A DNA stretch of 64,000 nt, from positions 6,553,001 through 6,617,000 of the forward strand of contig NC_092570.1 in assembly GCF_037975245.1 (NCBI RefSeq). The letters run 5' to 3'. Shown piece after piece: positions 6,311 through 38,700 of this stretch. The notes beneath the pieces were generated by a model. That model worked only from the letters and a program-made list of their open reading frames with translations. It was not told the DNA's origin and made no database searches. Each line of letters starts with the position of its first letter. Within the stretch, counting starts at the first letter, position 1. Position numbers and translations under genes: made by a program. Source of the stretch: Apostichopus japonicus. Its lineage: Eukaryota > Echinodermata > Holothuroidea > Aspidochirotida > Stichopodidae.

Positions 6311-6783
6311 AAAGTAGACTTACTGTAACTAACATGTGACACTGATTTCTCTAAAATTAAGCACATTAGAATGCAAACTGCAAACTAAAACCCCCAGTTC
6401 GGAAGAACCCTACCCTCCTCATTGACAAAAAAAATATAACTTATGGTTGTAAGATTGAGGAAGAATTTACTTTAGGGCTTGTGAAGATACATCAACTCGG
6501 TCATTTTTGGTCATGTACCTGAAAGTATAAGTGAAGAGGTGTCAATCGGCGGATAGCTTAAATTTGCTTTGGCTTGGGGACTGAGCTATAGATATGACAA
6601 TATATCTGTCATAACTTGGCAACATAAAAACCTACACAAACCTACCAAAATAATCTCAAACTGTCTGACACAAGAAGGCAACATTTTTTTCATTCTTTTG
6701 CAACTTTTTAATCACATATAATTTATGAACTTAACAGGAGAGAGAGAGATAAAAATAATATAAAGCAAGAAAGGGTTACTCAC

Positions 6784-7307
6784 TCAAGAAAATATTGCTG
6801 TCCGTTAGGTGTATGGGCGACCTCCCATCCGGGTGGAAGAGGTATTGATGATAAAATATCTGCGTTATCCGTTATATCGTAACTCTGCTGTTTCAAATGT
6901 TGAACTTGGAGGGATTGCTGGCCAACAGCAGACCTCATTTCCTGCAAGATGGCGGGCGACGACCGTGCCCGCTGATGCACAATGTTCAGTCCATGGGTCG
7001 ACAGTGATTGCGGACCGCTAGGTGGGGAAGTTATCCCCGAATCTGTGGGAGAATCACTATAATGAGATTCGTCTTGACTGGAATCTCGCCGGTGGTTACC
7101 GTTAGGGCTTAGCCTTGGTCCAGGTTGAGAGAAAAATGACGGCGGCAAATTACGTTCTTTCATAGGCTTTGGCAGTTCTTCTTTATCCGCGCTAGGGTGC
7201 AAGACTCTCTGAAACAAATGTTCTAACTCGGTAGCCGAATCTCCCTTCATGTGAGAAATCACCTGTGTCTTCCTATCCTCCGCATCCACCATATCGACAG
7301 ACGTCAT
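6784..7307 (-). CDS. YAP1: YAP1/Yorkie transcriptional coactivator, first coding exon (partial gene)
   Basis: Hippo-pathway coactivator that binds TEAD factors in the nucleus and is held in the cytoplasm by LATS phosphorylation and 14-3-3. The exon codes 174 residues plus two bases. Residues 18-62 form the TEAD-binding region, ending with the LPPSFF loop (human LPDSFF). H111-Q-R113-A-R-S116-S-P matches the human S127 site; HRRDSS (72-77) is a second HxRxxS site. The first WW domain begins at L157 (LPPGWE) and is cut at QQYFL by donor GA|GTGAGT at 6784/6783, where human YAP reads RYFLNH. The start is the first ATG of the frame. An acceptor-like TTCTTCAG ends at 7339, so an upstream non-coding exon is likely. 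Later exons (rest of WW1, transactivation region, PDZ tail) were not found to the left. HMKGDS (19-24) and HLKQQS (137-142) carry K where LATS sites have R. The gene could equally be named yki. Confidence 0.95.
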
Positions 7308-35786: not shown

Positions 35787-38700
35787 TTAAGGAGATGCAG
35801 AGAGTAAAAGGTTCACCTGAAGTTGGAAGAAAAAAGAAAGACAGTAGAAGATTTTAATTGTTTTAAAGGATAATTTGATAAATTAATGGTACCACTTAAT
35901 TCAGGCTATTTATGCCCTACCTTCATAGTGGTGAAAGACCACAACCATTCCACAACAGTTCTTCATGTAAGGAAAGTGTTCATTTGTAGTTCCATGTATT
36001 AAGAACTGTTCATTCATACTTAGTAAAGATTCCTAAATCCTATTGGTCCATTCAGGTCAGCTGACCGTGGTTAATCCTGTGAGTAACGCACGGTAAAACT
36101 ACGGGGCATCACTTTAATAAATCTTTGGTTATATGTAACCAAAAATGTTTTGTTTTATGATTTTTCCCCCACACAAATGGTAGTGTATGAATGAACGGGG
36201 TTAATGAACGGTCTAGCATGCGTTACTCACATGATTAATGCACTTCGGGTGTTAATGCTATCGCTGGATGCACTCGGGCTCCGCCCTCGTGTATCGCTTG
36301 CATTATCCCCCGATCGTGCATTAATCCTGTGAGTAACGCACGCTAGACCGTTGATTAACCCCTTATTGTAACTAGTTATATCCTACCTTCATAATGGTTT
36401 AAGACCATAACAAATTAGGGAAAAGTGTTCATTTTGTAGTTCCTTGTACTAAGAACTGTTGTAACTAGTTATATCCTACCTTCATAATGGTTTAAGACCA
36501 TAACAAATTAGGGAAAAGTGTTTATTTCGTAGTTCCTTGCATTAAGAACTGTTGTAACTAGTTATATCCTACCTTCATAATGGTTTAAGACCATAACAAA
36601 TTAGGGAAAAGTGTTCATTTAATAATTCCTTGTACTAAGAACTGTCGTAACTATCTATATCCTACCTTCATAATAGTTTAAGACCATAACAAAGTAGGGA
36701 AAAGTGTTTATTTTGTAGTTCCTTGTACTAAGAACTGTTGTTACTATTTATATCCTACCTTCATAATGGTTTAAGACCATAACAAATCAGGGAAAAGTGT
36801 TTGTTTCGTAGTTCCTTTTACTAAGAACTGTTGTAACTATTTATATCCTACCTTCATAATGGTTTAAGACCATAACAAATTAGGGAACAGTGTTTGTTTC
36901 GTAGTTCCTTTTACTAAGAACTGTTGTAACTAGTTATATCCTACCTTCATAATGGTTTAAGACCATAACAAATTAGGGAAAAGTGTTTATTTCGTAGTTC
37001 CTTGCATTAAGAACTGTTGTAACTAGTTATATCCTACCTTCATAATGGTTTAAGACCATAACAAATTAGGGAAAAGTGTTCATTTAATAATTCCTTGTAC
37101 TAAGAACTGTCGTAACTATCTATATCCTACCTTCATAATAGTTTAAGACCATAACAAAGTAGGGAAAAGTGTTTATTTTGTAGTTCCTTGTACTAAGAAC
37201 TGTTGTTACTATTTATATCCTACCTTCATAATGGTTTAAGACCATAACAAATTAGGGAACAGTGTTTGTTTCGTAGTTCCTTTTACTAAGAACTGTTGTA
37301 ACTATTTATATCCTACCTTCATAATGGTTTAAGACCATAACAAATTAGGGAACAGTGTTTGTTTCGTAGTTCCTTTTACTAAGAACTGTTATAACTATTT
37401 TTATCCTACCTGTTCTGCAGACGGACATCCAATAATCTGCTGATCTTCTTCCGTGTAGTTATCTTTAACTAGAACTTCAAATCTCTGGAAAGACTGTTGT
37501 ATGTTTGTCTGAGGAACAACGTGAAACAAAGCAAAAAATGTGTTAAACAAAGTTAGGACATTAATATAAATGAGTTAAATTCACCAAGTTTACACCACTA
37601 TTTCCTCTAACAGAATGTTGGTTGGTAAGTCAGAATGCCAATGGGATTATCAATGGGATTACAAATGGGATTATCAATGGGATTATCAGGTATTATGTCT
37701 CCTCTTTACATCAACAAAAGAAATGACCATATTTTAAATTTCATTTTGCTCCAAATATCAAACCTTGGGATACTTTAAATTCCCTACGCTATGTATGTGA
37801 TTACGGTCTTATTGCTGCTGTAACAGACTCTAAAGTTAAATGGACTGAGAAATTTCTTTTAATATTGACTTAAGAAAAAGTATTTTTGAATAGGAAATGT
37901 AAAGGGACAAAAATACACAAACAATCACACAAACATAACAAACTAAACTAAACAAACAATTGGGATATGCCCTCAGGAAACCATTAGCATCATATTGTAG
38001 CAGCTCTTTAATATAATTGCTTGGTTACAATGCCAATATAGGACTTCTTGTAATTACCAATGTGACATACCTTAACCGGTCTGAAGAGAATGTATTCTGT
38101 ATCCTTATTAGCTAGATATAGAGACATTTTCTCAAATATAACAGATACTAAGGATTTTATCTGTTTGTTGGTGATCCCAACAATATCTCTCAGCTTCTCT
38201 GTAAAGAAGAAGAAAAATACACCAACTTCAACAGTTACTCAGAAGAATTCCATTTAGCTATCATTCCAAAATTCTACACGGAGAGATGTGACCGAAATTT
38301 TAGCACGTTGAAACTTCAGAAGTTTTGCAAAACTGCTTCCCTTTTTTCATGTATCCTAATTTTGTTAGCAGATAATGACAATTATTAAATTAGACAATTA
38401 GATCTATCAGTAAGGAAATAGACACTGATGGTTGCAGTCCCTCTCCACCCCTACCCCCCCCCTCCAAATAAAACCCATTTATGACCATTTGTCATCTTTC
38501 TTAATACATTAGAAGCTCTGTATGTCATCTAATCACAGCTTTGTAAAATCACTAGTCAATCTAAAGAGAGATCCCTTTCCTGTTTCACAAAATGAACTGG
38601 ACTTGCTCTGAGCAATGATGACAGCGGTTAAATTTAGGATTCGATTTATTGCAGATATTATTGAACGGAGAAGCAAGAATAACATAAAGTTGTTTACTAT

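Follow-up and report, generated by a model that had tools for sequence, protein, structure and literature searches.

The closest described counterpart of the repeat reported here is the VNTR in intron 18 of human ABCA7, which consists of a 25-bp array directly flanking exon 18 and whose first GT is the canonical donor (PMC5954066). According to the available part of that report, an isoform that retains one unit is produced from a donor one unit downstream, and this retention is independent of VNTR length. In addition, skipping of exon 19 rises and expression falls with VNTR length, and the same part of the report finds no effect of VNTR length on nonsense-mediated decay (PMC5954066). The ABCA7 array is C-rich and disease-linked, and is described as comprising about 12 to 427 units among people (PMC5954066).

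A comparable array is present in the last intron of COG3 in Apostichopus japonicus, within a window of 64,000 nt (the whole stretch of DNA that was analysed, to which plain coordinates refer). The gene is identified as COG3 because a peptide joined by eye from the window exons matches Pfam COG3_C (E 2.3e-50) and COG3_N (E 1.4e-11). A search of the PDB with the joined last-exon peptide returned no COG3, the sole match being Csm6' (E 0.52). The last COG3 intron is 1,593 nt long with its 3' end at 35817, and translation bears out the statement of the first-pass annotation that the exon behind it encodes only nine residues (VNLLLSASP). Elsewhere in the window, positions 6780-7307 of the minus strand hold a 175-aa open frame, which we take to resemble part of a YAP1-type WW-domain protein. 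The features of the COG3 locus are collected in Table 1.

Table 1. Positions of the last COG3 exons, the intron and its repeat units in the window (a slash marks the exon-intron edge or its counterpart in the units)
Feature	Position	Strand	Basis
Penultimate COG3 exon, 99 nt, end ...IIGCPSAEQ, phase 0	37410..37508	minus	Translation, CCTCAG acceptor, Pfam COG3_C on joined exons
True 5' splice site CAG/GTAGGA, GT = 37409-37408	37404..37412	minus	
Tandem array, 11 full 93-bp units and a partial unit, no indel	36366..37411	minus	TRF and direct cut
Starts of units 2-11, donor-like AAG/GTAGGA	37316, 37223, 37130, 37037, 36944, 36851, 36758, 36665, 36572, 36479	minus	
Start of unit 12, identical AAG/GTAGGA word	36386	minus	
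Traces of a 465-bp (five-unit) duplication	36480..37252	minus	
Inserted dispersed element with a pair of 47-nt inverted repeats, within unit 12	36012..36367	minus	Ends by eye, about +/-2 bp
Diverged part of unit 12 and beginning of a 13th unit, AAG/GTAGGG at 35920	35906..36010	minus	
Non-repeat intron end, polypyrimidine tract and acceptor TTCAG	35817..35905	minus	
Last coding stretch, VNLLLSASP and stop	35787..35816	minus	Translation

TRF delimits the array at 36366-37411 with a period of 93, 11.2 copies, 93% matches, 0% indels and a score of 1777, and when the sequence is cut every 93 bp from 37409 onward, eleven full units result, each with between 3 and 6 deviations from the consensus. Both approaches confirm the eleven tandem 93-bp copies without an indel that had been noticed from the letters. 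The true donor of the penultimate exon (37409, CAG/GTAGGA) is where unit 1 begins, the 9-mer AAGGTAGGA recurs at the 11 unit starts beyond it, from 37316 down to 36386 in 93-bp steps, and AAGGTAGGG is found at 35920, past the inserted element. The later units therefore hold AAG/GTAGGA in register, as annotated, but the true donor reads CAG instead of AAG. Similarly, an array does occupy 36366..37410, the span first assigned to it, but its diverged end and the insertion lie outside this span and the intron reaches to 35817. The array is AT-rich, and together with the later insert it occupies all of the intron except about 89 nt.

Based on two structural features, the COG3 array can be filed among the ABCA7-type, donor-including intronic VNTRs, a placement made from sequence and from the available part of the ABCA7 report. 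As in ABCA7, the array is intronic and adjoins the exon, with the GT of unit 1 being the canonical donor (COG3 edge at 37411, GT at 37409), and the later units repeat the donor in register (11 copies of AAGGTAGGA in 93-bp steps). Furthermore, use of the donor one unit downstream is described as leading to a premature stop in ABCA7, and the same outcome is predicted from the frame for COG3. However, the 25-bp unit of ABCA7 shifts the frame, whereas the 93-bp unit of COG3 is a multiple of three with an immediate in-frame stop. The ABCA7 array, as far as described in that part of the report, adjoins an internal exon, is C-rich and ranges from about 12 to 427 units among people, in contrast to the AT-rich COG3 array, which lies in the last intron and is represented by 11 units in one assembly. 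With its position behind the last intron, the next exon of COG3 cannot be skipped in the manner described for ABCA7.

Towards the exon, the unit end agrees with the final 31 exon bases at 9 positions, and AG is the sole run that touches the donor. The 289 nt upstream (exon included, minus the two AG bases) align to the unit with a score of 60, below the 78.5 that marks the best 5% of 300 shuffles, and the 317 nt from the last exon onward reach a score of 69, with shuffles at 84 (best 5% of 300). The few matches and the below-shuffle upstream score indicate that the unit contains no exon edge of any detectable length. The array had been attributed to a tandem duplication that included the exon-intron edge or a near copy of it; local tandem duplication with a donor-like site at each unit start holds, but no exon edge is detectable in the unit. 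The same comparisons bear on the Rogers model of intron gain (PMC4974935), in which an exon segment bearing AGGT is duplicated in tandem and thereby gives rise to an intron. The COG3 locus shares with that model, in the part of the source available, tandem copies bounded by AG/GT, as the model requires. However, the unit is not detectably exonic, resembling neither the upstream 289 nt nor the 317 nt from the last exon, and the acceptor in use is embedded in non-repeat sequence outside the array, where it has a separate pyrimidine tract, which makes this origin highly improbable. Derivation of the intron from duplicated coding sequence was likewise rejected, on the single AG run shared with the exon end and on exon comparisons that stay below their shuffles.

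At the other end of the intron, the final 89 nt do not resemble the unit (score 32, with shuffles at 48). The diverged terminal unit in front of them aligns to the unit with a score of 118, compared to at most 84 across 300 shuffles, and around its donor 33 of 39 bases match, with one change within the 9-mer. In this last unit (35906-35944), the array palindrome ATGGT...ACCAT reads GTGGT...ACCAC, a paired change on both sides; this is a single case and may be due to chance. The element inserted in unit 12 is about 356 bp long, and a related copy occurs in one of twenty sampled 10-kb stretches (L032 1600-1911). Measured against the shared flank, the inner segment of the L032 copy is inverted, as though flipped between the inverted repeats.

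An array that starts at the donor and, with the later insert, accounts for all but those about 89 nt of the intron could also stem from an introner, a mobile sequence that carries its own splice site into a gene. In common with introners, as far as the available descriptions go, repeat sequence meets the intron edge. However, the mobile element of this intron entered unit 12 at a later stage, and a 25-base unit word searched with at most 3 mismatches has 12 matches in the 671.6-Mb genome, 12 of 12 of which lie in this array, with 0 for the reversed control. A DNA search of the genome with the whole array returned this locus and the adjoining diverged piece, the counts of both searches being lower bounds for repeats. 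Confinement of the unit word to the array speaks against both an introner and a dispersed satellite, and in view of the dispersed copies expected of introners and not found by these searches, we give an introner origin hardly any weight.

The COG3 array rather appears to be a minisatellite that grew by tandem duplication in the last intron, from a segment whose left edge was the splice donor. The short word AGGTAGG occurs both at the donor and roughly one unit farther downstream, and probably determined where the first duplication broke and which register it took. From the pattern of the units, later unequal exchange would have amplified single units and, on one occasion, a five-unit block. 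Units 3, 4 and 5 (37223-36945) have exact counterparts in units 8, 9 and 10 (36758-36480), and at lag 465 the longest exact run is 341 bp (37252-36912), as would be expected of a recent five-unit unequal exchange. Unit 1 and unit 2 differ at two positions, both among the first 24 bases, and the longest lag-93 exact run starts after these, so that the donor edge seems older than the most recent single-unit exchange. That the array begins no more than 2 bp from the donor is a noteworthy coincidence, for which the microhomology model accounts by inference only. Most likely, the donor register is a by-product of where the duplication started. Taken together, we consider it quite probable that the COG3 array is a single-locus, locally grown and probably neutral intronic minisatellite of the ABCA7 type, with the true donor dominant.

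Donor-like repeats elsewhere provide a measure of how unusual such units are. Genome-wide, three AGGTRRGW words with gaps of 70-100 show no excess over the reversed word, with 2,983 + 8,310 matches compared to 17,092 + 15,263, these matches overlapping and including simple repeats and hence not being counts of arrays. Among the matches listed, all on C1, are repeats with a unit of about 40 bp that contain AGGTGAGT, a strong donor-like word (G000:C1:4703609-4703904, 4704988-4705401 and 1922719-1922964). In a sample of 29 arrays (period 15-300, at least 3 copies) drawn from 200 kb of sampled genome plus the window (264 kb), one array has a unit that pairs with U1 at -9.2 or better, as does one of 29 sets of reversed units. 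With an earlier selection (period at least 30, at least 2.5 copies), 19 arrays were obtained, one of them with AGGTRRG; the sole positive of both samples is the COG3 array itself, which is therefore not an independent case. The array itself is thus more than chance and its position at the edge is notable, but a donor-like word within its units is not exceptional.

By duplex energy, the decoy donors in the array are predicted to be good U1 sites. The calculated U1 duplex energy is -10.7 kcal/mol for the true donor, -9.2 for the eleven AAGGTAGGA copies and -9.7 for the copy at 35920. The 11 COG3 donors identified, which were placed by exon reading instead of transcripts in a gene that has further donors, range from -4.9 to -11.1 kcal/mol, with nine of them (-4.9 to -8.8) pairing less strongly than the decoys. 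Furthermore, among 708 GT sites from 49309 to 37412 only two reach -9.2, one of which is an identified COG3 donor. Since all but two of the 11 identified donors pair less well with U1 than the decoys do, occasional use of the decoys is plausible, and substantial use would also be compatible with this pairing. The AG directly before GT at every unit start might in addition suggest recursive or stepwise splicing, in which the AG/GT of a unit acts as acceptor and regenerates a donor. However, the unit-start AGs lack a pyrimidine-rich stretch upstream: by the measure of at least 13 pyrimidines among the 20 bases upstream, none of the AGs in the array qualifies as a usable acceptor, and from 37560 to 35780 only the two true acceptors and 36077 in the insert reach this value. 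Splicing of this kind is therefore given next to no credence.

The idea that the donor copies are kept by selection is not borne out by the units themselves. None of the nine donor columns is variable, with 18 variable columns of 93 across the eleven units (P = 0.13), and invariant runs of at least 17 columns occur in 35% of random draws (P = 0.35). The nine invariant columns are compatible with chance and also with weak constraint. A second property of the units is their potential to fold. A 271-nt stretch across the first units folds somewhat better than its shuffles (z = -1.98, 6 of 200 shuffles being equally good), and the fold model of this stretch places GTAGG in a stem. Over the five bases from GT, predicted accessibility falls below that of the true donor for 10 of 12 decoys at each of the two narrower settings and for 6 of 12 when the widest is used, and over the 9-mer for 10, 7 and 3 of 12 across the three settings. 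For decoy 3, the sole decoy compared with shuffles, 33-35% of 300 flank shuffles are equally closed. Masking of the decoys by hairpins was rejected as an explanation, being unstable across settings and without excess over the flank-shuffle control, although a weak effect of local structure at the decoys could be present.

The consequences of decoy use follow from the reading frame. The penultimate exon is followed directly by GTAGGATAA, and the frame continues GTA GGA TAA, with an in-frame TAA as the third intron codon, so that the same ...AEQVG-stop end results whichever decoy is used. With a unit of 31 codons, decoys had been proposed to change intron retention in frame-preserving steps unless stops intervene; this in-frame TAA rules out such steps, and unit 2 has a stop codon in all three frames. 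The donor at 37409 is probably the main one, favoured by exon definition and by one extra base pair to U1, and low-level use of a decoy may occur, most likely of the nearest at 37316. Such use would replace the last nine residues by Val-Gly-stop. The predicted stop lies 84 nt upstream of the last junction for the nearest decoy and farther for the others, and in vertebrates such a stop-to-junction distance exceeds the usual trigger distance for nonsense-mediated decay. With a stop at least 84 nt before the last junction, decoy mRNA would probably be destroyed by this decay.

These predicted effects could make the array a copy-number rheostat, in which decoys capture U1 and sometimes the exon, and more units lead to more intron retention, nonsense-mediated decay and less COG3. 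The strong U1 pairing of the decoys and the in-frame stop, which gives one common outcome suited to decay, would fit such a role, as would the one-unit isoform of ABCA7 and the reported tracking of exon 19 skipping and lower expression with VNTR length (PMC5954066). However, in the available part of the same report one-unit retention is independent of VNTR length and nonsense-mediated decay shows no observed effect of it (PMC5954066), and the donor columns of the COG3 array show no excess conservation. A rheostat role is possible but unsupported, and we regard it as unlikely. Side by side with the donor-like words, six of the eleven units carry a poly(A)-signal-like hexamer between one donor-like site and the next (AATAAA at 36526, 36712, 36991 and 37177, ATTAAA at 36623 and 37088, minus strand); these hexamers are weak evidence, the sequence being AT-rich. 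Unit number might set the decay-prone share of transcripts ending in ...AEQVG-stop, or U1 bound along the array might shield these hexamers from premature cleavage, but either form of regulation is quite improbable. The reading preferred here remains that of a minisatellite with a dominant true donor, and the COG3 array is probably close to neutral.

COG3 is a second gene with the ABCA7 layout, which hints that intronic minisatellites may repeatedly have their breakpoints at donors. The near-identical 5' splice sites lined up behind the true donor, with their common stop, provide a natural test of how a donor is chosen by distance and context. If the array is neutral, it is a caution that repeated splice-like words need not mean regulation. 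If instead it were a functional U1 ladder, it would give a Golgi-tether gene a heritable rheostat, in an animal distant from human.
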